Below the pieces are notes generated by a model. It did no database searches. It had not been told where the DNA came from and saw only the letters and a program-made list of their open reading frames with translations. A stretch of DNA of 64,000 nucleotides from Rhodococcus sp. P-2. GTDB lineage: Bacteria; Actinomycetota; Actinomycetes; Mycobacteriales; Mycobacteriaceae. This document shows, in pieces, positions 10,428 through 63,857 of the stretch; position 1 is the stretch's first letter; each line of letters opens with the position of its first letter. The position numbers and the translations under genes are program-made. The stretch lies in NCBI RefSeq assembly GCF_016598535.1, contig NZ_CP066779.1, forward strand, positions 3,100,001 through 3,164,000, written 5' to 3'.

Positions 10428-10455
10428 GCGATTTGTCCTGTTCTTTTGCTTCGTT

Positions 10456-11012: not shown

Positions 11013-11045
11013 AACGGCGCGGTTTCACGCTGTTCGTCGTGGCGT

Positions 11046-12158: not shown

Positions 12159-12355
12159 CAGATTCCTTCGCCGAACTCGTTTGGTTAATGAAGAGCAAAG
12201 TATGTCAGCCTCTGTTGCTTTACGCGTCAACTCGGGTTGGAGTTTCATGCGGGGCGTCACCGGCAACAACTACTGACGTGTTCGTTGGGTCGTAGGGCGA
12301 GCAAAGGTGTGAGCCAGGCCTCGAGAATTCGAGCGGTGTGTTCGAACGCACAATT

Positions 12356-12389
12356 TTGCAGAGCTCTGCAAAGTTGCAGAGGTCTGCAA
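12356..12389. promoter_or_regulatory. Tandem palindromic operators upstream of a TetR gene
   Basis: Two 16-base palindromes lie head to tail: TTGCAGAGCTCTGCAA at 12356-12371 (perfect) and TTGCAGAGGTCTGCAA at 12374-12389 (7-base arms around GG). Their centres are 18 bases apart. They end 18 bases before the GTG of the TetR gene at 12408, the classic position of an autoregulatory TetR operator that would also control the downstream MMPL exporter. Confidence 0.85.
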
Positions 12390-12407
12390 GTTCGGTACGG
12401 TGGTGGA

Positions 12408-13022
12408 GTGATAACCGAGCCAAGCCTTCGCGACCGCAAGAAGGCAGCAACCCGTACCGCACTCAGTGACGCGGCGGCACGACTGGCTCGCGCTCTCGGG
12501 ATCGAATGCGTCACCGCTGATGCGATCGCCTCCGAGGCGGGGGTGTCGACGAGGACATTCCACAACTACTTCTCCAGCAAGGAGGAGGCGGTTCTGGCGA
12601 GTTTCGAGGAAACAGTGGCTCTGTGGATCGAGGCGCTTGCAGCCCGGCCCGCGGATGAGCCCATCCTCGACGTGCTCGAGGATCTCGTGGTCGAAATCGT
12701 GAGCGATTCCGGCTCGAGCGTGAAGGAAAAAGTAAACATCTGGATGTTGTCGGATTCGAGTCCTGCTCTCTATCGGGATGCGGCCGACATGCATCAGCGG
12801 ATCAACCGTGCAGTCACTCGGGCATTGGCCGAACGCACCGGCACGGACGCCGAACGGGACCTGTATCCGACCCTCCTCCTGGGGGTGGTGGCCGGGGCTT
12901 GTAAGTCGGTGATCGACATCTGGTCTGGTGGAAAGTCGGAGGCTTCCAGTCCGGAAGAGTTGGTCCACGACGCTTTTCGGCAAATCCGTGCGGGATTGCC
13001 TGCGCCGCCACCTCGCCCCTGA
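12408..13022 (+). CDS. TetR-family repressor of the MMPL exporter
   Basis: A 204-residue TetR regulator. The HTH is in residues about 10-58 (ALGIECVTADAIASEAGVST then RTFHNYFSSKEEAVLASFEE). I chose the GTG at 12408 with a GGTGGAG site upstream; starts further upstream would overlap the two operator palindromes. The MMPL exporter gene begins 55 bases downstream on the same strand, so the pair looks like a ligand-responsive repressor and its efflux pump. Confidence 0.9.
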   Translation: MITEPSLRDRKKAATRTALSDAAARLARALGIECVTADAIASEAGVSTRTFHNYFSSKEEAVLASFEETVALWIEALAARPADEPILDVLEDLVVEIVSDSGSSVKEKVNIWMLSDSSPALYRDAADMHQRINRAVTRALAERTGTDAERDLYPTLLLGVVAGACKSVIDIWSGGKSEASSPEELVHDAFRQIRAGLPAPPPRP

Positions 13023-13077
13023 GACCCACTCGTAATACCTGTCCACGTACACGCACCGAAACAGCAAGGAGCCCGTC

Positions 13078-15432: not shown

Positions 15433-15435
15433 TCT

Positions 15436-15490
15436 CTGCTGTGCGCCTTTATTAACCCCCCGCGGTTAATAAAGGCGCACAGCAGTTTTT
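15436..15490 (+). terminator. Strong intrinsic terminator of the MMPL gene
   Basis: A perfect 22-base-pair stem (arms 15436-15457 and 15464-15485) with a 6-base loop is followed by TTTTT at 15486-15490. It begins three bases after the MMPL stop codon. This is the longest uninterrupted hairpin in the window and insulates the ABC transporter genes that follow. Confidence 0.93.
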
Positions 15491-15547
15491 CGGTCACCGA
15501 AATATACAGCGGCACATGTCGGCCAGGATTGGTAACCTTCGCTCACT

Positions 15548-19209: not shown

Positions 19210-19231
19210 TCGCGCTACTACGGTGGTGAGC

Positions 19232-19900
19232 ATGCTGATTGCCGAGGATCTGCTGTTGCTCGCCACCGACGACGTCAGCGGGAAACTGCTGCGTTCGTCG
19301 TCCTACGTCGATGTTGCGCTCGGAGGTGCCTTGTTGGTCGAGCTTGTGCTTGCCGACCGCGTCCGTCTCGACGGCTCCGGATGGAGGGCGCGGGCAGCCG
19401 TCATCGACAATCGGCCACTCGCGGATCCCACTCTCAACGCTGCATTGGCGAGGCTGGTGGAGAAGCCACCGGCCCGGCCGACTGCGGTGGTGAACCGACT
19501 CGCGAAGGGCGCAAGGAAGGCGCTCTATGCAGGCATGGCGGCCCGCGGAATTGTGACGGCCGTGGAGCATCAAGTGCTCGGTATCTTTCCGAGTGTCAGA
19601 TGGCCGGCGACAAACCCGCGGTACGAGGATCAACTGCGCTCCGTGCTGCGTGACATTCTGCTGGGCGTCCGCGAACCCACTCCCGCCGAAGGTGCATTGG
19701 TGTCGATCCTGGCAGGCGCCAACATGCTCAAGGTGATCGTTCCGGCGGATCAGTTCAAGGCGGCGAAAGCGCGAGCGAAGGTGCTGTCGCAGGGAAACTG
19801 GGCGAGCGAGGCAGTGCGGCAGTCGATCGCCGCGACGCAGGCAGCCACTACAGCGGCGCTCACCGCAACAATTGCGGCGTCGACATCCTCGGGATCGTAA
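19232..19900 (+). CDS. GPP34 (GOLPH3/VPS74-like) family protein
   Basis: A 222-residue protein matching the GPP34 family: the N-terminus LIAEDLLLLATDDVSGKLL and the central DPTLNAALARL segment are typical. Eukaryotic relatives bind phosphatidylinositol 4-phosphate; in actinobacteria these are stand-alone proteins of unclear role, presumably at the membrane surface. The ATG at 19232 was used; in-frame GTG codons at 19226 and 19223 are alternatives. The alanine-rich C-terminus looks disordered. Confidence 0.82.
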   Translation: MLIAEDLLLLATDDVSGKLLRSSSYVDVALGGALLVELVLADRVRLDGSGWRARAAVIDNRPLADPTLNAALARLVEKPPARPTAVVNRLAKGARKALYAGMAARGIVTAVEHQVLGIFPSVRWPATNPRYEDQLRSVLRDILLGVREPTPAEGALVSILAGANMLKVIVPADQFKAAKARAKVLSQGNWASEAVRQSIAATQAATTAALTATIAASTSSGS

Positions 19901-21969
<2,069 letters not shown>

Positions 21970-22029
21970 CCAAGCACCACAAGGCGCTCGGATGCGAGTT
22001 GGCGACCGTCCAGTTGCGCAGAACACACC

Positions 22030-22067
22030 GAAGGCCCTGCGGTTTCACGTGGAACCGCAGGGCCTTC
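22030..22067 (-). terminator. Intrinsic terminator of the proline-rich membrane protein operon
   Basis: A perfect 15-base stem (22030-22044 with 22053-22067) encloses an 8-base loop. It lies 20 bases after the stop of the minus-strand gene at 22088; a T-rich stretch (GGTGTGTTCTG) follows on that strand. It separates this operon from yhhQ. Confidence 0.75.
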
Positions 22068-22087
22068 GAGGTATGTAAACGAACTGA

Positions 22088-23035
22088 TCAGGCAGCTACC
22101 GGACCGCCGGTCAGTACGCGATATGCGTAGGTACTGGCGATCAGCGCGACGGGCGCCGTCACCAGTAGTCCGATTCCACACAGCAGTGCACCGACGATGT
22201 TGATACCGATCAGAGCGAGCGCCAGCAGGATCAAGGTTCCGACGTTCGACGAGGTCAACGCATAGCTCGACTTGATGCCGGAAATCGCATCCTGGTTCTT
22301 GTCCACGATGAAGGTCAGCGTGTAGTAGAGCAGGAACGCCGCGATGATGCCGGGAATTATGCAGAGCGCCAAACCGACGTAGGTAGCTACGGCTACAAGG
22401 AAACCGCCGAGGACAACCGCACCGATGTTGGTGAATTGGAAGAAGGTGCCGAAGGCCGGCTTGATTCCGTCCAATTCGCTCAATGCTCCACGAAGGAATG
22501 CGGCTTGGATGATGTAGCCGACGACTGCAGTGACCAATCCGCCCACGATCGACAGCGCGTTGAACTCGGTGTTGGTGTAGTCGAAGCCGTTGAACGCGCC
22601 CTGGATCAGTCCGGCGATCACAAACGCGATGAGCGAGATCCCGATCCAGACGAGCGCATTGTCTTTGAATTTGTTCCAGCCGTACGTAATTGCTGCACCC
22701 ACGGAAAGCTGGGGGCCGCCGAAACCTGCGCCGTAGTCATTCGGAGGCGGAGGCGGGAAGTTGCCACCCCCGGGAGGAGGCGGGTACCCGCCGGGCGGCG
22801 GATAGTTTCCGCCGGGAGGGGGATAGTTTCCGCCCTGGGGTGGCGGTGGGTATCCACCGGGCGGCGGGTAATTGCCACCTTGAGGCGGAGGCGGGTAGCT
22901 ACCGCCCTGTGGAGGCCCGGCCGGAGGGGGATAGCTTCCGGGAGGGGGTGCTCCCTGCTGGCCGTACGGATCCTGGGGTGGGAATTGCTTCCCATCCTCT
23001 GGGTTCTGGTTGGGGTCGTGCCCACCGGTTGTCAT
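22088..23035 (-). CDS. Proline/glycine-rich multi-pass membrane protein
   Basis: A 315-residue protein. Residues 1-110 are low-complexity repeats of the type PPPQGGNYPPPGGY; residues about 115-315 contain five or six hydrophobic segments without a recognised catalytic motif. The opening MTTGGHDPNQNPEDGKQFPP is almost the same as that of the upstream RDD protein, and the DNA encoding the two N-termini is nearly identical, so one tail was copied from the other. The gap to the RDD gene is 8 bases, so they are one operon. Function unknown; such tails may mediate protein contacts at the membrane. Confidence 0.8.
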   Translation of the reverse strand: MTTGGHDPNQNPEDGKQFPPQDPYGQQGAPPPGSYPPPAGPPQGGSYPPPPQGGNYPPPGGYPPPPQGGNYPPPGGNYPPPGGYPPPPGGGNFPPPPPNDYGAGFGGPQLSVGAAITYGWNKFKDNALVWIGISLIAFVIAGLIQGAFNGFDYTNTEFNALSIVGGLVTAVVGYIIQAAFLRGALSELDGIKPAFGTFFQFTNIGAVVLGGFLVAVATYVGLALCIIPGIIAAFLLYYTLTFIVDKNQDAISGIKSSYALTSSNVGTLILLALALIGINIVGALLCGIGLLVTAPVALIASTYAYRVLTGGPVAA

Positions 23036-23043
23036 ATTCCTAC

Positions 23044-23763
23044 CTAGCCCTTGACTACCTGAGTTCCACCAGCGAGCTCGTCATGCTTGCCCTGCTTGGT
23101 GGGGCTGTTGTTGATGGTGACTGCGATGACGATGTACGCAACCAGCGCGAGGATTCCGCCGATGATCGGAATGATCGAGAGCAAAGTGAAAGCGTTGCGA
23201 ATCGCAGACTGCTGGACTGAGGGGCGAGGTGCGCCGCCCGGACCGTGTACTGAAAGGCCCAGAATCATCTTTCCCAAAGTCCGACCCTGCGTCACTTCCA
23301 TTGCGATGAAGTACGCGAAGGTCAGAATTCCCGAGAACAGCCCCGAGACCAGAATCAAGCTGTCGGAGTCACTGACCAACAGAGCCAGAATCGCGGCGAT
23401 GATGCCGACGATGATGCCGTCGATGATGCGGGCACCGAGTCGAATCCACAGATCGCCCGGCTGAGCGCCCGAAGGCAGCCGGTTTCCTCCGCCGTACGCA
23501 CCTTGGTCGTTGAACTGCGGAGGAGGCGGGAAGTTTCCGCCCTGGGGCGGCGGCGGGTATCCACCGGGAGGCGGGTAGTTGCCACCCTGAGGAGGCGGGA
23601 AGTTTCCGCCCTGCGGAGGTGGGTAGCTTCCGCCCTGCGGGGGGCCGGCGGGAGGTGGGTAACTTCCGGGAGGAGGTGTTCCCTGCTGGCCATATGGATC
23701 CTGGGGTGGGAATTGCTTCCCGCCTTCTGGATTCTGGTTGGGGTCGTACCCGCCGGTTGTCAT
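23044..23763 (-). CDS. RDD-family membrane protein with proline-rich N-terminal tail
   Basis: A 239-residue protein: residues 1-90 are PPPQGG-type repeats; residues about 100-235 form an RDD domain (LGARIIDGIIVGII opening with the Arg and Asp that name the family) with about three to four helices. RDD proteins are envelope proteins, some linked to ion transport. First gene of a two-gene operon on this strand. The tail is shared at DNA level with the neighbour at 22088. Confidence 0.85.
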   Translation of the reverse strand: MTTGGYDPNQNPEGGKQFPPQDPYGQQGTPPPGSYPPPAGPPQGGSYPPPQGGNFPPPQGGNYPPPGGYPPPPQGGNFPPPPQFNDQGAYGGGNRLPSGAQPGDLWIRLGARIIDGIIVGIIAAILALLVSDSDSLILVSGLFSGILTFAYFIAMEVTQGRTLGKMILGLSVHGPGGAPRPSVQQSAIRNAFTLLSIIPIIGGILALVAYIVIAVTINNSPTKQGKHDELAGGTQVVKG

Positions 23764-23893
23764 GTGTTCCCCTCAGTCGTAAATATCGCGCTCGAGTGTG
23801 ACAGTGGATATGACCCTACTGGGATCAAAGAGCGATGTGGATGACATCTGCTCACTTGGATTCGGAGGTCACCTGTGGTTTAGGCTGCGTTGT

Positions 23894-24532
23894 ATGACGA
23901 GTTCCGGGGGCAACAACGACGATTCTTCGAGCGATTACCAGGCAAAACCTGGATACGGAGAATTTCCGAGCCTGCCTTCTGAGGGGTACGGCGTGTCCCC
24001 GTCCGAAACGCAGTCTTCACCTGAAATTCCCGGATATACCACTCCCAACGAGCAGTACCCGGGTTACCCACCGCCGTCGTACAACCCCACCGGCAATACG
24101 CCTGAGCCGGGTGGAATTGGTGAACCAAACCCATATCTGCCGCCGCAGACCTTCAATCCACCTAATCAATACCCGGCCAATCAATATCAGCAACCCGGAC
24201 AATATGGACAGGCTCAGTACGGTCAGCCGCCGAACCCGTACGGTCAACCGAATCAATTCGCGGGCGGGTACGCACCGCCGATGCGGCCGGTCGGTACCAA
24301 TGGTCTGGCAATTGCATCGCTGGTTGTGTCGCTTGCGGGCGGTTGCTTTTACAGTCTCGGCGGAATCGTCGGGATCATTCTGGGAATTGTCGCGCTCAAC
24401 CAGATCAAGCAGACAGGTCAAGAGGGACGCGGTCTCGCGATTGCCGGAATTGCGGTCGGAGCGACTTTCTTGGCGATCTTTGCCGTGATTCTTGTGGTCG
24501 CACTCATAGCAAGTGCATCGTCGCCGTACTGA
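23894..24532 (+). CDS. DUF4190-type membrane protein with proline/tyrosine-rich tail
   Basis: A 212-residue protein. Residues 1-130 are rich in Pro, Tyr, Gln and Asn (QYGQPPNPYGQPNQ); residues about 135-210 form two helices of the DUF4190 type (NGLAIASLVVSLAGGCFYSL ... GIVGIILGIVALNQIKQ). It is divergent from the RDD operon and has a similar tail, so the three genes may serve the same envelope process. The ATG at 23894 was chosen because upstream codons in the frame look non-coding. The last codons belong to a 16-base tandem duplication. Confidence 0.78.
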   Translation: MTSSGGNNDDSSSDYQAKPGYGEFPSLPSEGYGVSPSETQSSPEIPGYTTPNEQYPGYPPPSYNPTGNTPEPGGIGEPNPYLPPQTFNPPNQYPANQYQQPGQYGQAQYGQPPNPYGQPNQFAGGYAPPMRPVGTNGLAIASLVVSLAGGCFYSLGGIVGIILGIVALNQIKQTGQEGRGLAIAGIAVGATFLAIFAVILVVALIASASSPY

Positions 24533-24553
24533 AGTGGCGCCGTACTGAAGTGC
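24522..24553. repeat. 16-base tandem duplication copying a stop codon
   Basis: Units CGCCGTACTGAAGTGG (24522-24537) and CGCCGTACTGAAGTGC (24538-24553) differ only in the last base. The first contains the last two codons and TGA of the DUF4190 gene; the second repeats them outside the gene. This is the second of three such structures in the window. Confidence 0.9.
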
Positions 24554-24560
24554 GCAGCGC

Positions 24561-25301
24561 TCACACGGGCGTGACGATGGATGACGCGGGGAGCGGCTTC
24601 CCGAAGTAATAGCCCTGGCCCATATCGCAGCCGGCTCTCGAGACGTTGGCTGCGTGTTCGGCGGTTTCGACGCCCTCTGCGATCGAATCAAGCCCGAGCT
24701 TGCGGGCGATGTCGGCGATGGACTCCATGACCATGAAAGCGCGATCTCCAGCACGACCCGCTGCGCTGACGGCCCATGTCAACGATTGGTCGATCTTGAG
24801 AATGTCGAGCGGCAATTCCGACAACGCGGAGAACGACGCGAAGCCCGCCCCGAAATCATCGAGGGCAATTCGAATTCCTTCGTTGTGCAGGATGTGAAGA
24901 GTGTCCGCGGCATGCCTACCTACGACGCCGAGTTCGGTGACTTCGACGATAATTCTGCTCAGTGGCGTTTCTGAACTGTCGAGTGCTCCGAGGATCTCGT
25001 GAGCGGCGTGCGGCGTCGCGAGTTGGCGAGGCGAAAAGTTGACCGCAACCATCATGTGCTCAGGCCACGACGCTGTTTGGGCGCAAATCATATCCAGAGC
25101 TTGTAATCCGATGGGAATGATGAGTCCGGAAGATTCGGCGGAGCGCATGAAATCTTGAGGTTCGATCAACCCTCGGAGTGGATGGCGCCACCGCAAAAGT
25201 GCTTCGTAGCTGACAATTGCTGACGAGTTCAGATTGACCTGGGGTTGATACAACACCTCGAATTGATGGTCGTCGAGTGCCTCGCGAAGCTCGCGGACCA
25301 T
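24561..25301 (-). CDS. Stand-alone EAL-domain protein (c-di-GMP phosphodiesterase)
   Basis: A 246-residue protein made of a single EAL domain. Expected residues are present: EALLRW, VNFSP, EVTE, DDFGAGF, LKIDQSL and AEGVE, covering the metal-binding and catalytic positions, so it should hydrolyse cyclic di-GMP. There is no membrane or sensory domain. The ATG at 25301 is the first in-frame start giving a complete domain. It is the likely counterpart of the diguanylate cyclase at 11046. Confidence 0.9.
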   Translation of the reverse strand: MVRELREALDDHQFEVLYQPQVNLNSSAIVSYEALLRWRHPLRGLIEPQDFMRSAESSGLIIPIGLQALDMICAQTASWPEHMMVAVNFSPRQLATPHAAHEILGALDSSETPLSRIIVEVTELGVVGRHAADTLHILHNEGIRIALDDFGAGFASFSALSELPLDILKIDQSLTWAVSAAGRAGDRAFMVMESIADIARKLGLDSIAEGVETAEHAANVSRAGCDMGQGYYFGKPLPASSIVTPV

Positions 25302-25557
25302 GCGTATTCCTTTTCGTCCTGAGTCGCCCGTGCCGCACGTGCGTGTCAGCGTGGATGCTGCAAGTGGGTACTGCGGTCGGATTCCAGGTTCAGATCCGGG
25401 GTGTGGTTTTGCAGGGACCACTCGCCCTGAATTGCCTTCGCCAGTCTCGACCGTACTTCACTATTTGGAAATTGCCAACGAATAGCTATTGCGGACCGCT
25501 TTGTCATATCGGACAATCGAGCTTTTGTCCCCGACAAGGCGCTGATTGATACTTCAC

Positions 25558-26454
25558 TTACTTTGCCGGGAAAATCCACGGGTTCCGGGGGATCTTGCGA
25601 GAGTCGAATCGATCCGCCAATAGCGGAGGCGTGACAACTTCGCCGGGTTCGGCGAGACCGATGCTCGACGCGATCATCGTCAGAACCTGTTCGGCACTGC
25701 GTCCGGCTTCGAGTTGATCTGCCAGGGTCACTGCGCCATCGCGCTTCGCGAGTCGTTTGCCTTCACTGTTCAACGCGAGAGGAACGTGAGCGTACGACGG
25801 TGGTTCGATGTCGAGCAGTTGGGCAAGGTACGCCTGACGCGGCGCCGAGGTGAGGAGGTCGTCGCCGCGGACGACTTGATCGATGTTCTGGGCGCCGTCG
25901 TCGACGACTACTGCGAGGTTGTAGGCGGGTACTCCGTCTCCGCGGAGCAGGACGACGTCGTCGACTTGCCTCGTCACCTCGCCGAACAGTGCGTCGTGCA
26001 CGGTGAATGAATCGATATCTGCCCGAAGTCTCAGCGCCGGGGATCGTCCGCTTGCCGATCTGTCGGCGCGTTCGGCGTCCGACAGGTTTCGGCACGTGCC
26101 AGGGTAGGCGCCATCGGGAGCATGGGGAGCGGACGGCGCCTGCAGGATCTCTTTGCGTGTGCAGAAGCAAGGGTAGGTCAGGTTGCGCTCGCGCAACCGG
26201 TCGATAGCCTTGTGGTACAAGGGAAGACGGTGTGACTGTAGGACGACCGGGCCGTCCCACGTAAGGCCGAGCCTGCGCAGATCGTCGAGTTGTCGTTCCA
26301 TCGCGCCGGGGCGAACACGGTCGAGATCCTCGACGCGAATGAGGAAATCGCGCCCGCTGGTGCGGGCGAACAGCCAGGCTAGAAGGGCGGTACGGAGGTT
26401 TCCCAGATGGAGATCGCCGGACGGACTCGGCGCGAAGCGCCCTGCTCCTGCCAC
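25558..26454 (-). CDS. gluQRS: Glutamyl-Q tRNA(Asp) synthetase
   Basis: A 298-residue truncated glutamyl-tRNA synthetase paralogue lacking the anticodon-binding half. HIGH-like motif PSGDLHLGN near residue 11, KMSKS-like KRLAKRDGA near 240, and a CxC...C zinc site (YPCFCTRKEI, then YPGTC). It attaches glutamate to the queuosine base of tRNA-Asp, so it only makes sense in a cell that has queuosine; tgt and the YhhQ transporter are 4-6 kb away. The GTG start at 26454 is one base from the stop of the upstream TetR gene. Confidence 0.93.
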   Translation of the reverse strand: MAGAGRFAPSPSGDLHLGNLRTALLAWLFARTSGRDFLIRVEDLDRVRPGAMERQLDDLRRLGLTWDGPVVLQSHRLPLYHKAIDRLRERNLTYPCFCTRKEILQAPSAPHAPDGAYPGTCRNLSDAERADRSASGRSPALRLRADIDSFTVHDALFGEVTRQVDDVVLLRGDGVPAYNLAVVVDDGAQNIDQVVRGDDLLTSAPRQAYLAQLLDIEPPSYAHVPLALNSEGKRLAKRDGAVTLADQLEAGRSAEQVLTMIASSIGLAEPGEVVTPPLLADRFDSRKIPRNPWIFPAK

Positions 26455-53562: not shown

Positions 53563-54237
53563 GTTGCCCCCTTGGCCTGTGTGCGTGAAACAGCTGTCGG
53601 AATGTCGCAGCACCACTGTGTGATCGAATTGTTATAAGTGCCGTTCCCTTGTGCGCGCACGTGCCGAAAGCGCACCTGCTCGGCCCGGCAAAGCTGAATT
53701 GTGTGTGGCCGGTTTGCTGGCACATTCGTTCGCTCAGTTCCGGTGTAACGAAATGCCGATCCGGACGATGGTCGCCGAAGAATATCTGGAATTTCTCGTA
53801 GTCTGATCGACATTCGAGTGCCGCTGTTAATTCTCTGTGTGTCACGAATGCCAGATTGAAAGTTGCCGGATGTTTGTTTTGCGGCGATCGACCAATTTGG
53901 GACATTCGGCGAATTGGCCACATATTCGGCATTGTGCCATTTCAGAGAGTACTCAACTAACTATTTGCCGATCTCGAGTAGATGATCGCCGTGACGCCGG
54001 GTTCCGGTACGTATGTTCAAACCCGCCATTGACCGGCCATGAAGCAAACAAGTAACTTCAAGTTACAGCTAACTATGGATTGCTGAAAAATTGCCGTGGT
54101 TCGTTCATGGTACTGAGCGACCTTTGTTATTTGTTTATGCCTTGAGGTGAATCTGCGTTTTACACACCGATGAATGCGTGGTTAGTCTTCGGTCGATTGA
54201 GTCTCCCGTGGATGCGCGTGAAAATAGGAAGTGTAAG
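53563..54237. promoter_or_regulatory. Long A+T-richer intergenic region upstream of the synthase, with palindromes
   Basis: This 675-base gap has no convincing gene; the open frames in it have poor codon bias. It is visibly less G+C-rich than its surroundings. A cluster of symmetric elements lies at 54052-54074: GTAACTT-c-AAGTTAC (54052-54066) overlaps AGTTA-cagc-TAACT (54061-54074). They are about 165 bases before the synthase ATG and look like operator sites. The synthase start at 54238 has an AGGAAG site. The rest of the gap could contain a long leader. Confidence 0.5.
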
Positions 54238-57200
54238 ATGACTGAAGATTCAACTAATCCCGCGATCGCGATAGTCGGGATGAGCATGTGGTCTCCCGGA
54301 GCCCATGATCTGCAAGGATTTTGGGAGAACGTCCTCGCGCGTCGGATGCAATTCCGAAAGTTTCCCGAGTCACGGATGTCCCTCGACGACTACTGGAGCG
54401 CGAGCCCTGACGACGTCGACAAGACATACGCCGACCGCGGCGCGTTCATGGATGGTTTCGAATTCGACTGGGTCGGTCGCCGGATACCGGAGCGGACCTT
54501 CAAGTCGACAGATCTCACGCACTGGTTGGCCCTGGAAACAGCACTCGGGGCTTTGACGGACGCGGGGTACAGCCGAGGATCGGTGCCCACCGGACGCAGC
54601 GCCGCAATCGTCGGCAACTCCCTCACCGGTGAAGAATCCCGGATGTGGTCGATGCGTTTGCGGTGGCCTTACGTCAAGCGCGCACTCGCTGTGGCAGCCG
54701 AAGCACGCCAGTTGGACCCTTCTGTCGTCGATGCTCTCGCCGAAACGATGGAAGAGGTCTACAAAGGCCCATTGGTGGAGCCGAGTGAAGACACCCTGGC
54801 CGGGATGTTGTCGAACACGATTGCAGGCCGGATCTGCAATTACCTCGATTTCAACGGCGGCGGGTACGTCGTGGACGGTGCGTGCGCGTCCGGAATGCTC
54901 GCGGTGGCGACTGCCGCCGAAAAGCTGGCGTCCGGCGCGGCCGACTTCGTCTTGGCCGGTGGAGTCGACGTCAGCCTGGATCCTTTGGAACTGGTGGGAT
55001 TCGCCCGTTTGGGTGCACTGACCCGTGGCGACATGAACGTGTACGACGCAAGCCGAAGCGGATTCATCCCGGGTGAAGGTTGCGGATTCGTGGCCTTGAA
55101 ACGACTCGAGGACGCCAGGGCGGACGGCGACTACGTGTACGCGACGATTCGCGGCTGGGGCATCTCCACCGATGGCAAGGGTGGAATTACCAAGCCCCGC
55201 GCCGAAACTCAGGCCGAAATGATCCGTCGCGCATATTCGGGAGCGGGATTCGCGGCCGGCGAGGTTGCCTTTGTCGAAGGACACGGAACTGGTACTCCCG
55301 TCGGGGACCCTGTCGAATTGGCCGGCGTCCAGCAAGCCGCGCAGACGGACGGGCCCGTCGAGGCTCGCAGCATCGGCATGACGTCGCTGAAGTCGCTGAT
55401 CGGGCACACGAAGGCGGCGTCGGGCATCCTTGCGCTGATCAAGGCGACCATGGCCGTCAATCAACGAATCCTTCCGCCGCTCGCCGGTTGCACCGACCCG
55501 AACCCGGCGTTCGCAACCGAAGCACCGGCACTCTTTCCGCTTGTCAACGGCGAGATCAGAGATCCGTCGGAGAAGATGCGTGCCGGTGCGCAAGCCATGG
55601 GTTTCGGCGGTATCAACTGCCATGTCGCCATCGAATCGGCTGATGCACCGTCCAGCAAGCTGACACCCTCGCGGGACGTCCGCACGATGATGGCGTCGTA
55701 CCAGGACACCGAGGTATTTGTTCTCTCCGCGGATTCGGCCGTGGACTTGGCGACGCGAGCGCGCGATGTCGCAGATCTGGCAGTTCCGTTGAGTGTTGCC
55801 GAACTGCTGGACTTTTCGGCGAAGCTCTCGCGAGTGATCTCGCCGACGGCACCCTTCCGCGCTGCAGTGGTGGCTGGTCGTCCCGCGCAGTTGGCCGAAC
55901 GCATGCGTCAGCTAGCCGTGATCTGCGAGAACTCCGCTCCCGCTTCCGGCCAGGTGAAGGTCGTGAGCAACGAGATCTCGATCTCGAACAACGTTCGCCA
56001 CGACATCGGATTCCTGTTCCCTGGACAGGGATCCCAACAACTCGAGATGGCTCGTGTGCTGATCGAGCGCTTCGAGTGGGCACGCGAACTGGCGGCCAAG
56101 GCGGACGGCTGGTTGGAGGGAGTCGGAGCGGAGGCGATCACGCCGCGGATTCTGCGGAACCCGGTCAAGAGCGCTGACGCTGCGGAATTGGCGAAGTGGA
56201 AGCTGGACCTCGCCCAGACGCAGTTCACCCAGCCCGCCGTCGCCTTGGCTTCGCTGCTCTGGTTCGAGTACCTCCGACGATTGGGTGTCACACCCAGTGC
56301 CGTCGCCGGCCACAGTCTCGGGGAGTTGACCGCACTCTACGCGGCAGGAGCTTACGACCAGAAGACGCTGATCACCTTGGCTGCGGCGAAGGGCGCGGCC
56401 ATGTCGGTCAGTGGTGGTGGAAACGGCGCAATGGCGAGCCTGGCCTGTGACCGATCGACGGCCGAGGCGATCATCGCGGAAGCAAAGGGTTACGCGACCG
56501 TCGCGAATCTGAATACGCCTACGCAGACTGTGGTTTCGGGAACCAAGGATGCAGTCGACGCTGTGGTTGCCATCGCGAAGGCGCGCGGAGTGTCGGCTCA
56601 GGCGCTTGCCGTGTCGAATGCTTTCCACTCCGAGATGATGAACGAGGCCGAACGGGAGCTCAAGTCCACTGCGCCCGTTGACGAGCAAGTCGATTCGTTG
56701 ACTTGCACCGTGTATTCCTGCGTCGAAGGGGAACGCGTGCAGACGCCACTGGCACTTCGCGAATTGGTCACCAAACAGGTTGTCTCACCGGTCGACTGGG
56801 TCAAGACGGTAAGTGGGATCTCGCAGGAGGTGGACCTGCTCGTCGAGGTCGGACCCGGCCGTGTGCTGACCGGGCTCACCAAGGCGATCAATGGGACCGA
56901 CGGCGTGCGCTGCTTCCCCGTTGCGTCCAAGTCCGGACGTGACGAGGACTTCAACGTCGCGCTGGCAGCGATGTACGTACACGGCGCTCAGGTTCGTTGG
57001 AACGAACTTTTCGACGGCCGGTTCGTGCGTGAATTCGTTCCTGCCGATCAGAAGGTGTTCATCGAGAACCTGGCCGAGGCGAAGCTGTCGGTTACATCTG
57101 CTCCCGAACCGCTCGAACTGGGTACGTCCGGCGGGGATCCGGCTGCGGCGCTGGCCGATTACCTGAGCCGGCGCGGGACCTTCCTCGTCGACGTGATTCG

Positions 57201-60200
57201 TGCCGACGTGGGCAGTGGGGTGAGTGCTCCTTCATCTCCGATCCCGCAGGCCGTCACCAACGGGCACGAATCTGCAGCAGTGAAAGCTACTACGCCCGCT
57301 CCGGTTCCGGTCGTGGAAGTGCCGGCTGTCGTGGGTGCGACGTCCGTGGAAGGTGAGTTGATCAGGATCCTCGCCGACACCACGGGGTTCCCTGCCGAGT
57401 CGATCACGACGGATCTGCGTCTGCTCGATGATCTCAATCTCGACTCGATCAGTGCGGCAGAGGCTATTTCGAAGGTTGCGCACCAGTTCGAGGTTGTCGA
57501 CCTCGACCCTGCCGAGTTGGCCAATGCCACCATCGGAGAAGCAGCATCGCTGATTCTTGCGGTATCACCGAATCCCGGCTCTGCCGTTCCGGAAACGCGT
57601 TCGGTGCAGTCGGACGTATCGCGAATACTGCTCGAGGTAATCGCGGAGGACACCGGATTTCCGGTGGAGTCTCTCGACGTCGATCTCCACCTTCTGGACG
57701 ACCTGAACATGGACTCGATCAAGGCCGCCGATGCAATCGCGACGGTGGCAACACGATTGGGTGTTCAGGGCGACCTGGATCCGGCCGAACTCGTGAACGT
57801 CAGCCTGGGTGAACTGATCGAAGTGCTCGATCGGTCCGCGAAGGAGAAGTCGGGGCAGCAGCAGCCGGCTGCGCGAGCGCTGCCGGCGAAGGCGAAGGGT
57901 ATGTCAGCCGACAGCTTCACCTGGGTTCGCGATTACACCCTGGAAAAGGTTCGGAGCGAGACAGCGTTGCACGGAGTCCGAGACCTCACGGACACGACGT
58001 TTGTCGTCATCGGCGACGACGCCGGTTTGGTCGGAAGGTTGGAATCCGAACTTCGAGGTCGTGGTGCTCGGGTCGACATTCGCACATTCTCCGACAGTGC
58101 TCCTGCGCATGCGCACCACGTGGTTGCCGTAATGCCGCGCGTGACAGATGATTCCGTCACCGAACTCGGTTTGCGCCGTGGGATCGAACACATGTACAAG
58201 ATCGTTCCGGCGCAGCAAAGGGGCGGCGCGCGAACCACATTGGCAGTGGTCCAGTTCATCGATGTCGAGTTGGGCAATCCAGCGCCCGTGCCGAGTGCGG
58301 CGGCTTTTGCCGCTTCGGTGCATCACGAGCGCCCCGAGTTGGATGTACGCGTCATAGGATTCGACGGCTCGACTGCGGACGCGGAGGTGGCAGCCACCGT
58401 CGTCTCCGAGTTGGATTCGGTTGCACCCTATGTGTTTGCGACCTACGACGCCGAGATGGGACGCACGGCACTGCAACCGAAGGTTCTCACCTCGAGCGAC
58501 TACACCGTCCGCGAGAGCGGGTTGGGAAGTTCGGATGTCGTGGTCGTGACCGGTGGCGCGAAAGGCATCATGGCCCAATGTGCTCTGGCCCTCGGTCGAA
58601 AGACCGGCGCCGAACTGGTGCTGATCGGAAGCTCTCAGCGACAAGCGGGTGACGAAATCGCCTCCACTCTTGCGGACTTCACGTCTGCCGGTTTGAGCGC
58701 TCACTACTATCGCTGCAACGTCACGGATGCCGCGGCGGTGGCCGGCATCGTCGCCCAGATCGAGGTCGAGGTGGGGCCGATAACCGGGTTCGTCCACGGT
58801 GCGGGAGCGAATGTTCCGCGGCGGTTCGAGAGAGTCGACAGCGCTGTGGCTTTCACGGAGGTTGCACCTAAGGTCCTGGGCGCAGCCAACTTCGTCGAAG
58901 CGCTCGCTGATCGTGACTTGAAGCTGTTCGTGGGCTTCTCCTCCATCATCGGATTCACAGGTATGCCCGGAAACAGTTGGTATGCATACGGAAACGAGCT
59001 TCTCGATGACATGGTCGCGCGGTATGCCGCCGGTCACCCGAGGGCTCGGACGTTCTCGCTCGCGTACAGCGTGTGGGGAGAGACCGGAATGGGCGCCCGT
59101 ATGGGCAGTGTCAACCACCTCGCGAAGATGGGTGTCATGCCGATTTCGACGGCTGCGGGAGTGGATCATTTCCTTCGCCTGGTCGACAGCGGACCCGAGG
59201 CGAGTCGTATCGTCGTGACCAGTCGACTCGGCGGTCTCGACACCTGGGCGCCGGCAGCACCGGCTCTGCCGGCGGTGTCGCGATACATCGACCAAGTCGT
59301 GACGTTCGAGCCGCAGGTAGAACTGGTGACCCGGACGACGTTGTCCACCTCGGCGGATCCCTTTGTCCTCGAACATGTCTGGAAGGGATCGGCGCTGCTT
59401 CCGACGGTGTTCGGACTCGAGGCGATGTCGCAGGCAGCGGCCTATGTCACCGGACGCGTGACCCTGGGCCGCGTCCGCATCGACGACATCAAACTGGATC
59501 GACCGATCGTCGTCGACACGGTCGAGGGCACCGGAGTCGAGATCAAGGCAAGCGTCGTGGAGCAGGATCGTGATGCCGCAGGAACGCGGGTGCATGTCAC
59601 GATCGGCACCGAACGGACCGGATACGGGCGGCCCCATTTCTCGGCCGACTTCATCTTCGGGCTGGACGAAACACTGCCGGAGTTCGAGAAGGAGTTGCCG
59701 CGACCGGTGCTCGACATCGATCCGTTGGACGACCTTTACTCGTGGTTGCTGTTCCAGGAGGGCGATTTCCGCCGACTCGAAGAGATCTCGAGCCTCGATT
59801 CCGAGCACATCCTCTTCAGCGCCATTTCGCGGGCCGACCGTAAGCAGCACCTCCTCGGTGATCCTTACTTCCTCGATTCCCTGCTCCAATCGGGCCAGAT
59901 CATGGTTCCGCGGGAGATCTGCCTTCCGGTCAACATTGCGCGAATCGACATGTACGACGGACGATTCGAGGCTCGGTCGTTCACTGCGTACGCCTACGAC
60001 AAGGTGCAGACAGAGACCCACATGCAAGCCGACGTGGCGGTGGTGAAGGACGGACGAGTGGTGATGCAGCTCGAGGGATATCGCTCCCAGATTCTCTCCC
60101 ACGACGAAAGCCGTCCTACGGCTGAGGAAATCGCGGACCCGACTGCGCGCGACGCACAGATCATTCTCGACAAGCTCGCGCAGCACAGCCGGGCGTTGGG

Positions 60201-60339
60201 CGTGAAGAGCCCGCGGGTTGTGGTCGCGCATACCCCGGGGATTCACGAGTTGACCAAGTCGGAACGCCACGAGCAGGAGAAACCGATCGCCGAGGCGGCC
60301 GTGAACATTCATCTCGATGAGGATGCGGTGATCAAATGA
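54238..60339 (+). CDS. Iterative type I PKS / PUFA-synthase-like megasynthase, KS-AT-ACP-ACP-KR-DH
   Basis: A 2033-residue multidomain synthase. KS (about 6-460) has Cys216 (GACASGM), His349 (EGHGTGT) and His390 (IGHTKAA). AT (about 588-890) has Ser693 in GHSLGE. Two tandem carrier domains carry phosphopantetheine serines Ser1070 (NLDSIS) and Ser1160 (NMDSIK). KR has its NADPH motif TGGAKGI at 1438 and the Tyr-x3-Asn of WYAYGNELLD. The C-terminal double hot-dog DH has His1713 (HVWKGSALLP) and Asp1880 (DSLLQ). Single-module order with tandem ACPs is that of enediyne PKSs and PUFA synthases, implying an iterative polyene-type product. No ER or TE domain. The stop overlaps the next gene (ATGA). 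Confidence 0.93.
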   Translation: MTEDSTNPAIAIVGMSMWSPGAHDLQGFWENVLARRMQFRKFPESRMSLDDYWSASPDDVDKTYADRGAFMDGFEFDWVGRRIPERTFKSTDLTHWLALETALGALTDAGYSRGSVPTGRSAAIVGNSLTGEESRMWSMRLRWPYVKRALAVAAEARQLDPSVVDALAETMEEVYKGPLVEPSEDTLAGMLSNTIAGRICNYLDFNGGGYVVDGACASGMLAVATAAEKLASGAADFVLAGGVDVSLDPLELVGFARLGALTRGDMNVYDASRSGFIPGEGCGFVALKRLEDARADGDYVYATIRGWGISTDGKGGITKPRAETQAEMIRRAYSGAGFAAGEVAFVEGHGTGTPVGDPVELAGVQQAAQTDGPVEARSIGMTSLKSLIGHTKAASGILALIKATMAVNQRILPPLAGCTDPNPAFATEAPALFPLVNGEIRDPSEKMRAGAQAMGFGGINCHVAIESADAPSSKLTPSRDVRTMMASYQDTEVFVLSADSAVDLATRARDVADLAVPLSVAELLDFSAKLSRVISPTAPFRAAVVAGRPAQLAERMRQLAVICENSAPASGQVKVVSNEISISNNVRHDIGFLFPGQGSQQLEMARVLIERFEWARELAAKADGWLEGVGAEAITPRILRNPVKSADAAELAKWKLDLAQTQFTQPAVALASLLWFEYLRRLGVTPSAVAGHSLGELTALYAAGAYDQKTLITLAAAKGAAMSVSGGGNGAMASLACDRSTAEAIIAEAKGYATVANLNTPTQTVVSGTKDAVDAVVAIAKARGVSAQALAVSNAFHSEMMNEAERELKSTAPVDEQVDSLTCTVYSCVEGERVQTPLALRELVTKQVVSPVDWVKTVSGISQEVDLLVEVGPGRVLTGLTKAINGTDGVRCFPVASKSGRDEDFNVALAAMYVHGAQVRWNELFDGRFVREFVPADQKVFIENLAEAKLSVTSAPEPLELGTSGGDPAAALADYLSRRGTFLVDVIRADVGSGVSAPSSPIPQAVTNGHESAAVKATTPAPVPVVEVPAVVGATSVEGELIRILADTTGFPAESITTDLRLLDDLNLDSISAAEAISKVAHQFEVVDLDPAELANATIGEAASLILAVSPNPGSAVPETRSVQSDVSRILLEVIAEDTGFPVESLDVDLHLLDDLNMDSIKAADAIATVATRLGVQGDLDPAELVNVSLGELIEVLDRSAKEKSGQQQPAARALPAKAKGMSADSFTWVRDYTLEKVRSETALHGVRDLTDTTFVVIGDDAGLVGRLESELRGRGARVDIRTFSDSAPAHAHHVVAVMPRVTDDSVTELGLRRGIEHMYKIVPAQQRGGARTTLAVVQFIDVELGNPAPVPSAAAFAASVHHERPELDVRVIGFDGSTADAEVAATVVSELDSVAPYVFATYDAEMGRTALQPKVLTSSDYTVRESGLGSSDVVVVTGGAKGIMAQCALALGRKTGAELVLIGSSQRQAGDEIASTLADFTSAGLSAHYYRCNVTDAAAVAGIVAQIEVEVGPITGFVHGAGANVPRRFERVDSAVAFTEVAPKVLGAANFVEALADRDLKLFVGFSSIIGFTGMPGNSWYAYGNELLDDMVARYAAGHPRARTFSLAYSVWGETGMGARMGSVNHLAKMGVMPISTAAGVDHFLRLVDSGPEASRIVVTSRLGGLDTWAPAAPALPAVSRYIDQVVTFEPQVELVTRTTLSTSADPFVLEHVWKGSALLPTVFGLEAMSQAAAYVTGRVTLGRVRIDDIKLDRPIVVDTVEGTGVEIKASVVEQDRDAAGTRVHVTIGTERTGYGRPHFSADFIFGLDETLPEFEKELPRPVLDIDPLDDLYSWLLFQEGDFRRLEEISSLDSEHILFSAISRADRKQHLLGDPYFLDSLLQSGQIMVPREICLPVNIARIDMYDGRFEARSFTAYAYDKVQTETHMQADVAVVKDGRVVMQLEGYRSQILSHDESRPTAEEIADPTARDAQIILDKLAQHSRALGVKSPRVVVAHTPGIHELTKSERHEQEKPIAEAAVNIHLDEDAVIK

Positions 60340-61892
60340 GCAATGCCTTTGCCATCGAATGGCAGGAAACCGGAAAGCCCGTCGTTGTCGGTGACGTTCC
60401 ACCCTCTGTGGATGTCTCGCTCTCGCACGACGGCAGTAAGTCACTCAGTTCGGCCGGCGACTGGCCTCAGGGGTGCGACATCGAACCGATTCGTTCCCGG
60501 ACCGTCGTGCAGTGGAAGGCGCTTCTGGGGTCGGCACGGATTCCGCTGCTCGACGAGTTGATCGCAGGCGGCGAATCACTCGATCGTGCGGGAACCAGGT
60601 TGTGGGCGGCGGCCGAGGCGATCCGAAAGGCCACGGGGCAGATGTCGGTTTCTCTGGCGATGGGCGCCAGAGAGGACGACGCAGTGACCTTCCGCGGCGG
60701 CGCAGAGGCAAGCGTGGTGGTTCTGACCTTTCCAGCTCTGTTGACGGACAACGAGGAGCGGATTCTCGCGTTCGTGACTCATGAGGAGGATGCGGAAGAA
60801 CCGGCGCAGGACTCGGCACCGCAGTTCGACTCCGGCCCGTTGTCGGCGAATTCTCTCGCGCAGTTCGATCCGATGGCGTACGGCTCCGACGTGCATGTGG
60901 TGGCCCGAAGCGGCTATCCGGCGGTGTCGATCCGATTCCCCGTCGGGTTCCGGGACGCGTGCAACGTCGGTGGATCAGTGGGGTTCGCGAGCTTCGCGCT
61001 GTGGTTGGGCGCTTTGCGAGAGAGGGGAACCGGACCGATCTCGAAGCAGATCGTGGAGGACATGGCGACGGGTCGTTGGGGGATGGTGACCAACAACTCC
61101 GAGGTGTTCATCGATGCGAACCTGTACACCGACGACATCGTCGAGGGGACGATCTGGATCACTGAGCTCACCGGTCCGGACCGGGCAACGACCAATCTGC
61201 ATGTGGAATGGTGCCGGGTCGACGGTGAGACGCGCACTCATATCGGGTGGAGTGCGATGCAGACGACGTGGGTGGAAATCCTTTCCCACGGTGTGGTGGC
61301 GGCACGGCCGATGCCGCAGTATTTCCACGATTTCATCGAGCCGATGACGATTCCGACGGGGGCGAAGAACATCGCTGTCCCCACAGAACCGACGGACGTC
61401 GATCGTGGTTCCTTGATCCGCTCGGCTCCGATGGTGCCGCGCAATCCGTACCTGCTCGAATCCGAGGTGTTCTCGACGACGTTGCAGGACGGAAATGTCG
61501 TGGGCAACATCTACTTCGGCAACTATTACATCTGGCAGTCGAGGGTTCGGGACAAATTCCTCGTCCGTTCTCAGCGTGAAGCCATGGCGGCAAGAGGTGC
61601 TCTCGGGGAACTGCGTTGTGTGCACACAAGGGTGGAGCATCTGCGCGAGGTCATGCCGTTCGACGACGTCCTGGTCACGATGTCCTTGGCTGCCCTCTAC
61701 GAGCGGGGGATCGACCTCGAGTTCGAGTACTTCAAGGTCAATCCGGACGGATCACGGGAGAAGCTCGCGATCGCTCGGCACAGAACTGTCTGGACGGTGC
61801 CGGGCGCTCCGGGAGAACTGGAAATCTCTCCGCCGTCGAAACTTCCGCAGTCACTGATCGATTCGGTGCTGGAGGCGATCGACGGAAAGTAG
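60336..61892 (+). CDS. PPTase-like domain fused to two hot-dog thioesterase domains
   Basis: A 518-residue partner of the synthase. Residues 1-150 resemble a 4'-phosphopantetheinyl transferase: SLSH (28-31), GCDIE (46-50) and LWAAAEAIRKATG (89-101), where the usual WxxKE Lys is Ala92-93 region but Glu94 and Lys98 remain. Residues about 190-335 (FRDACNVGGSVGFASFALWL) and 375-500 (GNVVGNIYFGNYYIWQSRVR) are two hot-dog domains related to the thioesterases of enediyne clusters (CalE7/DynE7-like). The set would activate the carrier domains and release the product. In enediyne PKSs the PPTase is fused to the synthase; here it is fused to the release enzyme. Confidence 0.8.
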   Translation: MSNAFAIEWQETGKPVVVGDVPPSVDVSLSHDGSKSLSSAGDWPQGCDIEPIRSRTVVQWKALLGSARIPLLDELIAGGESLDRAGTRLWAAAEAIRKATGQMSVSLAMGAREDDAVTFRGGAEASVVVLTFPALLTDNEERILAFVTHEEDAEEPAQDSAPQFDSGPLSANSLAQFDPMAYGSDVHVVARSGYPAVSIRFPVGFRDACNVGGSVGFASFALWLGALRERGTGPISKQIVEDMATGRWGMVTNNSEVFIDANLYTDDIVEGTIWITELTGPDRATTNLHVEWCRVDGETRTHIGWSAMQTTWVEILSHGVVAARPMPQYFHDFIEPMTIPTGAKNIAVPTEPTDVDRGSLIRSAPMVPRNPYLLESEVFSTTLQDGNVVGNIYFGNYYIWQSRVRDKFLVRSQREAMAARGALGELRCVHTRVEHLREVMPFDDVLVTMSLAALYERGIDLEFEYFKVNPDGSREKLAIARHRTVWTVPGAPGELEISPPSKLPQSLIDSVLEAIDGK

Positions 61893-61922
61893 ACGGGGGT
61901 TTTCCGAGATCGAAGTGGAGAG

Positions 61923-61959
61923 ACGGGTTGCGTTTTCCTTGCCGGAGAACACAACCCGT
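61923..61959. terminator. Hairpin between thioesterase and multicopper oxidase genes
   Basis: ACGGGTTG (61923-61930) pairs with CAACCCGT (61952-61959); the inner GTTTTCC and GGAGAAC pair with one wobble across a 5-base loop. The imperfect 15-16 base stem ends 20 bases before the oxidase ATG. It may terminate some synthase transcripts or protect the oxidase mRNA. Confidence 0.5.
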
Positions 61960-61979
61960 TTCGATGGGGAGGGGTATGT

Positions 61980-63857
61980 ATGGGTATCGGGGTTTCGAGA
62001 AGGTCGGTTCTGAAGGGGTCGGTAGTCGGCACGGCGGCGATTGCATTGGGTGCAAAGGCAAGTGCTGTTCCGTCCGGGAGTGCGGACGTCGAGTCACCGT
62101 TGATTTTTCATTCGCCGGAGTTCGAGCCGTTCTGTGACGAACTGCCCTCGTTGTCGACGCTTTCCGGAAACGAGATCACGCTGACAGCGCAAGTCGGGCA
62201 ACATGCTTTTCATCGGGATTTTCCATCGTCCCCAGCACTGTCGTACCGCAGCGGAGAGATCGGTGGCGGTTTTCTGGGCCCGACCGTCGAGGCGTATTCC
62301 GGCGAGCCGATCATGGTGACGTTCGAGAACGATCTGACCGGATATCCGTTGGCCGCGGACATGGATATGACGCTGCACGGAATGCAGGCCGACTTCCGCG
62401 CGAACCCGCCGACGTCGTTGCACTTGCACGGAGGAGTCACTTCACCCGAGAGCGACGGCCACCCGGAGCTGCTCGTGATGCCGGGACAGGCTGCGATGCA
62501 TCACTTTTCGCACGGTCAGGAAGCCGCGCACCTCTGGTATCACGATCATGCGATGGGCATCACCCGGCTCAACGTCTACGCCGGTCTGATCGGCAACTAT
62601 TTGATCAGGGATGAATTCGACACCGGCAAGCTGGGAAACCCGTTGGGGTTGCCGGCCAAGGAATTCGAGATCCCATTGATCCTGCAGGAGAAGATCTTCA
62701 CACCGACCGGCGCCCTGAACGGCCGATCCACCATCTTGATCCCGGAAGGATCGTGGGAAGGCGGAGCCGTGGGCGACGTCGGCTTGGTCAACGGCAAGGT
62801 GTGGCCGGAACTGGCTGTGGCTCGGGGCCTTTACCGTTTCCGGATCGTCAATGCGTCGTCGGCAAGTGTGTGGAATCTTCACTTCTCGAACATGATGACG
62901 TTCTGGGTCATCGGTAACGACGCCGGAATGCTCGACGCGCCCGTCGCGGTCAATGCCTTCCGCTGCGCACCGGGGGAGCGGTACGACCTCCTCGTCGATT
63001 TCACCGGACTGTCGGAGGGATCGACGGTGGAGCTTCGCAACGACGAGGCGCCCCCGCTACCCGCTGCTGTCATCGGTGAAGTGACGATGCCGCTGTTCTG
63101 CCGGTTTCGCGGCGACCCCAGGCGCGGATTCACCGGTGGTGTTCCGTCGCAGCTGCGCGGTGGACGCCGGCAACGTGACGTTCTCGCCCCGTTGGAGCAG
63201 CCGACGGTAATTCGCACGGTGACGGTCAGCCAGCAACTGGAACTGCGGAATCCACCGGCTCAGATGACTCTGAACAACCTGACGTTCAGCACCACCGACG
63301 TCGAGAGGCCGCGGCAAGGCACCGTCGAGCAGTGGAACATCGTCAACACCACGCCTGACCCGCATCCGATACACCTGCACCTGGTGAATTTCCGGATTCT
63401 CGGCAGAACGCCGATGCGGACGTTGGAGTACCTGATCCGTCATCCCCAGCCGACGATCGGCAACAAGTGGACTCCGTCTCCCGACGGGTTCGAGGCGGGG
63501 CCGATGATCTCGCCGGCGCCGTGGGAAGCAGGGATGAAGGACACCGTCAGGGTGGACGGTGGCACGGTCACGCGGATCATCGTGCGATTCCCCACCGCAG
63601 ACGAGTTGGGTTTCGATCCCGACGCGATGTTCGATCGACTACCGAAGGCTGTCATGACGGGCGGTGCGATGACGGGCGGTGCGATGACGGGCGGTGCGAT
63701 GACGGGCGGTGCGATGACGGGCGGCGATCAGGCGCATCAGGGAAACGGGCACCACGGTATGAGTGACCCTGGTCGACTCCAGGGGTACGTGTGGCACTGC
63801 CACCTGCTCGATCACGAAGATCACGACATGATGTTGCCCTATCGCATCGTGCCGTGA
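61980..63857 (+). CDS. Tat-exported multicopper oxidase (CotA/PhsA-like)
   Basis: A 625-residue multicopper oxidase. A twin-arginine signal (GVSRRSVLKGSVVGTAAIAL) sends it folded across the membrane. The copper motifs are LHLHGG, WYHDHAMG, HPIHLHLV and HCHLLDHEDHDMM; the last gives the type 1 Cys, two His and axial Met, so T1 and trinuclear sites are complete. CotA, bilirubin oxidase and phenoxazinone synthase are the nearest kinds, enzymes that oxidise phenolic or metal substrates with O2. A Met-rich MTGGA repeat precedes the last motif. ATG at 61980 has a GGGGAGGGG site. It may oxidise the polyketide or serve copper tolerance. Confidence 0.92.
   Translation: MGIGVSRRSVLKGSVVGTAAIALGAKASAVPSGSADVESPLIFHSPEFEPFCDELPSLSTLSGNEITLTAQVGQHAFHRDFPSSPALSYRSGEIGGGFLGPTVEAYSGEPIMVTFENDLTGYPLAADMDMTLHGMQADFRANPPTSLHLHGGVTSPESDGHPELLVMPGQAAMHHFSHGQEAAHLWYHDHAMGITRLNVYAGLIGNYLIRDEFDTGKLGNPLGLPAKEFEIPLILQEKIFTPTGALNGRSTILIPEGSWEGGAVGDVGLVNGKVWPELAVARGLYRFRIVNASSASVWNLHFSNMMTFWVIGNDAGMLDAPVAVNAFRCAPGERYDLLVDFTGLSEGSTVELRNDEAPPLPAAVIGEVTMPLFCRFRGDPRRGFTGGVPSQLRGGRRQRDVLAPLEQPTVIRTVTVSQQLELRNPPAQMTLNNLTFSTTDVERPRQGTVEQWNIVNTTPDPHPIHLHLVNFRILGRTPMRTLEYLIRHPQPTIGNKWTPSPDGFEAGPMISPAPWEAGMKDTVRVDGGTVTRIIVRFPTADELGFDPDAMFDRLPKAVMTGGAMTGGAMTGGAMTGGAMTGGDQAHQGNGHHGMSDPGRLQGYVWHCHLLDHEDHDMMLPYRIVP
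63654..63725 (+). repeat. 15-base tandem repeat coding MTGGA inside the oxidase gene
   Basis: Four exact copies of ATGACGGGCGGTGCG plus a partial fifth encode MTGGA x4 then MTGGD. The repeat lies between the last cupredoxin strand region and a His-rich linker (HQGNGHHGM) just before the C-terminal copper motif. Perfect DNA identity of the copies suggests recent slippage and likely length variation among strains. Confidence 0.93.

Follow-up and report, generated by a model that had tools for sequence, protein, structure and literature searches.

A probable RerA/RerB polyene synthase locus in Rhodococcus sp. P-2, with a predicted, degenerate second hot-dog domain and a cyanobacterial plasmid relative

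Introduction

The locus analyzed here comprises two synthase genes and a multicopper oxidase (MCO) gene in a 64,000-nucleotide stretch of the Rhodococcus sp. P-2 genome (bases 3100001–3164000 of a 6.34 Mb single contig; hereafter, the window), and its closest described counterpart is the RerA/RerB pair (RER_RS03860/RER_RS03865) of Rhodococcus erythropolis PR4, expressed by Prasongpholchai et al. 2024 (PMC11563203). RerA of PR4 is composed of ketosynthase (KS), acyltransferase (AT), two acyl carrier protein (ACP1 and ACP2), ketoreductase (KR), and dehydratase (DH) domains, and RerB of a phosphopantetheinyl transferase (PPTase, or PPT), an "unknown domain Y" that was left unassigned, and a thioesterase (TE) (PMC11563203). 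Escherichia coli cells co-expressing rerA and rerB are yellow; they are colorless if the KS or the PPTase is inactivated, and orange, with an orange enzyme-bound species, if the TE is inactivated (PMC11563203). The purified proteins turn yellow within 3 minutes when supplied with malonyl-CoA and NADPH, and nitroso-pyridine trapping revealed polyenones and polyenes that contain 6 to 9 double bonds, including linear polyenes up to C22 nonaenes and ACP-bound chains as long as C22; the native product is, according to the authors, still being investigated (PMC11563203). A literature search for RerA/RerB by name returned this study alone. For tandem ACPs it cites the survey of Shulse & Allen 2011 (PMC3098273), in which R. 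erythropolis PR4 is listed as the sole member of the pfa-like "Type Q" and the only Rhodococcus entry in the list of clusters; Type Q presumably corresponds to rerAB.

The enediyne synthases PksE and their thioesterases (CalE8/CalE7 and DynE8/DynE7) are a second point of comparison, sharing with the rer genes a KS-AT-ACP-KR-DH-PPT-TE order across genes and the TE family. CalE8, like RerAB, performs conjugated polyene chemistry (PMC3107222).

Results and Discussion

The rerA and rerB Genes of Rhodococcus sp. P-2

In P-2, rerA, rerB, and the MCO gene lie on the + strand after dnaX, near the right end of the window. The rerA open reading frame (ORF; 54238–60339, 2033 aa) has no internal stop and a possible alternative GTG start upstream, at 54178. 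The start of rerB (60336–61892, 518 aa) overlaps the rerA stop through an ATGA, and the MCO gene (61980–63857, 625 aa) follows after 87 bases. Pfam matches, ORF coordinates, and matches to solved structures thus confirm the cassette of synthase, second protein, and MCO, and the ATGA coupling, that an initial annotation had read from the sequence.

All RerA domains were recognized by Pfam above their curated cut-offs, in the KS-AT-ACP-ACP-KR-DH order that had been proposed: the KS (54262–55488; PF00109 and PF02801), the AT (56011–56871; PF00698), two tandem ACPs (57358–57825, the end of the second being approximate; two PF00550 stretches with DSI motifs at Ser1070 and Ser1160), the KR (58540–59076; PF08659), and the DH (59314–60111; PF21089 and PF14765). 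The residues that we take to be catalytic are present, namely, Cys216, His349, and His390 of the KS, Ser693 of the AT, Ser1070 and Ser1160 of the ACPs, Tyr1582 and Asn1586 of the KR, and His1713 of the DH. Pfam detected no enoyl reductase (ER) or chain length factor (CLF) domain in RerA or RerB.

The N-terminal part of RerB (60336–60740, ends approximate) is PPTase-like. Pfam gave no match here and the best family model, AcpT, is weak (E 7.7e-4, far below cut-off); BLASTP, in turn, aligns this region with the C-terminal ends of 12 of the 20 PksE proteins that we retrieved and of a protein from the cyanobacterium Gloeothece (see below), with which the GCDIE and W..xEA..K positions are conserved. 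The C-terminal domain (61443–61865) is an enediyne-type hot-dog thioesterase by its matches to the Protein Data Bank (PDB), in which it hits the "ACP-polyene thioesterase" 4i4j (E 1e-11), CalE7 (2w3x, E 2.3e-10), and DynE7 (E 1.2e-8). Both activities had been assigned to the second protein by the initial annotation, which also held that enediyne loci differ in having the PPTase at the end of the synthase. That difference is real, in that PksE systems are arranged ...DH-PPT / TE and the rer locus ...DH / PPT-Y-TE (slashes mark gene breaks); the PPTase is nonetheless not missing from the synthase end but cut off from it by a gene break that falls before PPT in rer and after it in PksE. The rer locus further differs from PksE systems in having two Pfam-recognized ACPs (none was detected at E 0.001 in the four PksE proteins scanned), the additional domain Y, no E3 gene, and a KS outside the PksE clade. 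Elsewhere in the phylum, 8 of 396 genomes besides P-2 yielded RerB matches, all of them TE or PPT fragments and none extending over Y.

The domains of the P-2 locus follow the published order in the same pair of genes and within the same group of organisms (PMC11563203), its motifs are intact, and its KS lies on the PksE side of the tree described below; we therefore conclude with high confidence that the P-2 genes encode RerA/RerB, the iterative polyene synthase of the R. erythropolis group. The two pairs have the same genes in the same order within the same species group, and polyenes, one of the product classes suggested initially, are what the PR4 pair makes (PMC11563203). Several points weigh against this identification. 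The likeness, in which we found no functional difference, was drawn from the published description rather than from PR4 sequences, and P-2 rerAB is known here from its genes, not from expression. The computed untagged masses for P-2 (216.2 kDa for RerA and 56.6 kDa for RerB) also lie below the published 219 and 61.5 kDa (PMC11563203), the RerB gap being larger than expected of one short tag. Tags and length variation may account for these differences; RerB has 528 aa in R. erythropolis NBRC 15567 compared with 518 in P-2.

The mechanism outlined next was demonstrated or argued for PR4 and is extended to P-2 by orthology. The RerB PPTase would activate the two ACPs of RerA. RerA would load malonyl units and cycle through condensation by the KS, keto reduction by the KR, and dehydration by the DH; because enoyl reduction does not take place, the chain would stay conjugated. 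The RerB thioesterase would then release it, and linear polyenes and polyenones as long as nonaenes would arise by hydrolysis combined with decarboxylation or dehydration.

Phylogenetic Placement of the Ketosynthase

The initial annotation had called the synthase enediyne/polyunsaturated fatty acid (PUFA)-like and proposed a phylogeny of the KS against PksE and PfaA sequences. Our KS tree contains 46 sequences, including 20 from PksE and 20 from the PfaA family. The PksE set consists of 19 of the 30 matches listed outside P-2 (the 11 weaker were left out) plus that of genome G030; the PfaA-family set derives from 20 PfaA-model matches used as loci, 18 of which exceed the cut-off; and the second KS of one locus (L045) and the short matches of two others (L003 and L004) were omitted. 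The RerA KS is 47–51% identical to PksE, 34–38% to PfaA-family sequences, and 55.5% to the Gloeothece sequence. RerA and Gloeothece form a pair (support 100/98) to which the 20 PksE sequences are the sister group (99/94), and the 20 PfaA-family sequences stand apart (100/99); RerA falls on the same side as PksE of a branch with 100/97 support. The proposed relation to enediyne PksE is therefore upheld, as sister rather than member of that clade, and the PUFA half of the label finds no support.

The KS identity to PksE and the enediyne-type TE would both be accounted for by a true enediyne pathway with accessory genes elsewhere in the genome. We consider this highly improbable given that the PR4 pair yields free polyenes up to the nonaene (PMC11563203), that RerA and Gloeothece lie outside the PksE clade, and that UnbV/ASPIC (E3-type) genes occur in none of the four genomes with rerAB, P-2 included, compared with 17 of the 20 PksE genomes (in 15 of these inside the retrieved stretch). 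On the KS placement and the missing E3-type gene, whose absence the initial annotation had noted, we rejected the locus as a member of the enediyne cassettes; the latter alone is no proof because three of the 20 PksE genomes also lack UnbV/ASPIC. No E4, E5, or E11 gene was named among the ten ORFs scanned downstream of the window, and no search with models specific to these families was made.

The old Type Q label, which files the PR4 cluster among lipid synthases in PMC3098273, implies instead a reduced PUFA (Pfa) synthase that makes polyunsaturated fatty acids. Consistent with this are the tandem ACPs recognized by Pfam, the identity of the best whole-protein NCBIfam model, PfaA (582 bits, below its cut-off of 1010), and the presence of PR4 among the pfa-like clusters of that 2011 list. 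However, the tree places the P-2 KS with PksE, separated from the PfaA family at the 100/99 and 100/97 branches and only 34–38% identical to it, and the ER and CLF domains are absent from RerA and RerB. In line with the absence noted for the window, no PfaD-family ER in the genome exceeds the cut-off of 449 bits, the three matches scoring approximately 22 bits each. The ten downstream ORFs include no ER or CLF, and no KS-family gene that might serve as a CLF was found nearby apart from the thiolase after the cassette. We therefore rejected membership in the PUFA synthases on the KS placement and the lack of PfaD, and attach almost no probability to this origin of the polyene synthase.

Domain Y Is a Predicted Second Hot-Dog

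The initial annotation had seen two hot-dog domains in the second protein, and profile comparison bears out the second of these in the region of domain Y (60918–61325, + strand, ends approximate). In a BLASTP search, the RerB TE aligns with the Gloeothece protein in its Y region (E 7.6e-4), and an hhalign comparison of a Y profile with 14 TEs from PksE loci gave a probability of 95.5% (E 1.5e-8, 139 columns). The 19 controls, composed of nine other domain slices from the synthases, each in forward and reversed form, and a reversed version of the TE profile, gave at most 3.3%, the highest being the first half of the DH. The signature N..GN[VI]Y[YF].[NH][YF]..WQ is present in 18 of 18 TE sequences and in 0 of 5 Y sequences. 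Given the profile homology and the lack of the signature, we interpret Y as a second hot-dog that is related by homology to enediyne-type thioesterases and that, very probably, is without their activity. Two observations tell against the assignment: the five rows of the Y profile amount to only two distinct sequences, and an AlphaFold model of Y-TE, built from three near-identical rows, has a mean pLDDT of 32 and was not used as evidence of fold. Most likely, Y would pair with TE within one chain, an arrangement in which Y may help to hold the long polyene or give it its shape.

A Relative on a Cyanobacterial Plasmid

A search of 72,556 plasmid records with RerA ranks plasmid Cy782201 of Gloeothece verrucosa PCC 7822 (NC_014533.1) first; its match spans 98% of RerA at 42.2% identity, compared with 34–38% for the 19 other matches listed. 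It is also the only one of 48 records with a match that covers at least 80% of RerB. The cluster (NC_014533.1 315975–342497, within which 9986–26042) encodes KS-AT in one protein and ACP-ACP-KR-DH-PPT-Y-TE in the adjacent one. A small ORF comes after these, and then genes for three Trp_halogenase-family proteins (39–45 bits against a cut-off of 21) and for a carotenoid oxygenase. As in rer, the two ACPs are followed in order by PPT, Y, and TE, and the KS is the closest found outside Rhodococcus; the cluster differs in being split after the AT and fused thereafter, and in having halogenase-family genes and a carotenoid oxygenase gene in place of the MCO. The KS pairing should be read with caution given the odd amino acid composition and long branch of the Gloeothece sequence, but tandem ACPs and domain Y, present in both systems, support it independently. 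Literature searches for PCC 7822 with enediyne, or with halogenase and polyketide, returned no paper on this cluster and no product of its synthase, and a search of viral contigs with the Gloeothece protein returned no relative.

Orthologs, Selection, and History of the Site

Of the 28 genomes from the genus, four have RerB, P-2 included. The three-gene synteny search that the initial annotation had suggested shows the order dnaX-rerA-rerB-MCO-thiolase-fadB to be identical in all four, which include R. erythropolis NBRC 15567 (L017; RerA 96.6% and RerB 95.3% identical to P-2, in the same place) and Rhodococcus sp. IEGM 1409 (L018). Identities of P-2 to the three others are 94.9–96.6% for rerA, 95.3–97.5% for rerB, 89.1–94.4% for MCO, and 99.8–100% for the thiolase. 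Pairwise dN/dS values among the four genomes are 0.07–0.12 (rerA), 0.07–0.18 (rerB), and 0.10–0.20 (MCO), compared with 0.05–0.07 for dnaX, so that all three genes appear to be kept by selection.

One genome without RerB (G017), that of a close relative, carries what looks like a scar. It is 90% identical to P-2 over the last 300 bases of dnaX, and approximately 10 bases past dnaX an identity of 95% resumes from window position 63782 onward, so that what is left is the 76-base 3′ end of the MCO gene, in which changes have already occurred, and the spacer to the thiolase. The simplest reading of this alignment is that G017 lost approximately 10.2 kb (53564–63781) by deletion; strictly, the scar attests only the former presence of the end of the MCO gene. 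In three more distant genomes (G011, G008, and G003), dnaX and the thiolase gene are near each other and the retrieved stretch contains no rerA, rerB, or MCO match above 150 bits. In two of these three genomes, which lack rerAB, the dnaX-thiolase interval holds another long ORF, of 583 aa (L126 5208–6959) and 537 aa (L128 4938–6551); these ORFs presumably resemble GH5-type glycoside hydrolases, and the interval thus seems to be a variable site.

Beyond the window, P-2 encodes the thiolase, a hydratase/3-hydroxyacyl-CoA dehydrogenase fusion, and then a cyclopropane synthase-like methyltransferase and others. A scan found no promoter upstream of rerA. Two terminator-like sites precede rerA (0.8 expected by chance) and none was found on the + strand between rerB and MCO; we do not build on either count.

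The Linked Multicopper Oxidase

The Tat (twin-arginine translocation) multicopper oxidase that had been reported after rerB is confirmed by MCO domains above the Pfam cut-offs, with a Tat signal that scores slightly below its cut-off, and by His-rich motifs that we take to be the usual copper motifs. Among solved structures, its nearest relative is CotA, followed by phenoxazinone synthase and bilirubin oxidase; these enzymes act on phenols and pigments. The oxidase may oxidize the exported product of the synthase or be an unrelated linked gene.

The two options appear to us about evenly balanced. A CotA-like laccase that stands beside rerB without touching the polyene, a reading under which the synthase assignment still holds, fits the relationship to those solved enzymes, the silence on the oxidase in the main text of PMC11563203, and the wide distribution of MCO homologs (E 1e-100 or better) in 25 of the 28 genomes of the genus, 21 of which lack RerB; P-2 itself has a second copy, 53% identical, approximately 45 kb away. 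Against a mere bystander, the gene directly follows rerB in all four genomes, is under purifying selection, and belongs to a clade of rer-linked copies (100/100), and the G017 scar fits a joint loss of rerAB and nearly all of MCO.

No copper genes were found among ten ORFs near the MCO paralogs of G017 and G011; these encode Mce/MlaE, homogentisate dioxygenase, aldehyde dehydrogenase, hydrolase, CoA-transferase, HMGL-like, CrtC-lipocalin-like, and Lcp/mpaB-like proteins. Next to the G011 paralog (L042 9437–14346) lie genes for a CrtC-lipocalin-like protein and for an oxygenase that resembles latex-clearing protein/mpaB. In P-2, an MTGGA repeat whose length varies among the four orthologs is encoded at 63654–63725, just before the last copper motif. 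A partial MCO homolog (G008:C8:76976-77995), 72% identical to the P-2 oxidase over 342 residues, contains an in-frame TGA and is thus likely a decayed copy.

Conclusions

The original interpretation holds for a PksE-related iterative synthase with its own PPTase and TE and a polyene product, and fails for the PUFA label and for the claim that no product of this architecture had been characterized, which the 2024 work on PR4 contradicts (PMC11563203). The synthase core is already known, with a characterized counterpart and product class; what is new here is the assignment of domain Y, the cyanobacterial relative, and the history of the site. We tentatively speculate, as a possibility that we regard as rather doubtful, that RerAB and the Gloeothece synthase form a separate enediyne-type lineage that never made enediynes, in which a release module of two hot-dogs in tandem, Y dead and TE live, sets or protects longer chains and the polyene then passes to enzymes that use oxygen or halogenate, namely, the exported MCO in Rhodococcus and the halogenases and carotenoid oxygenase in the cyanobacterium.

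The main question raised by the locus is thereby answered, in that its synthase has a characterized counterpart and its product class is known. For the published system, the reading of domain Y as a degenerate thioesterase-like hot-dog provides a handle on a domain that had been left without assignment, and the cyanobacterial relative, with its halogenases and carotenoid oxygenase, provides a comparison that offers a handle on the native products.

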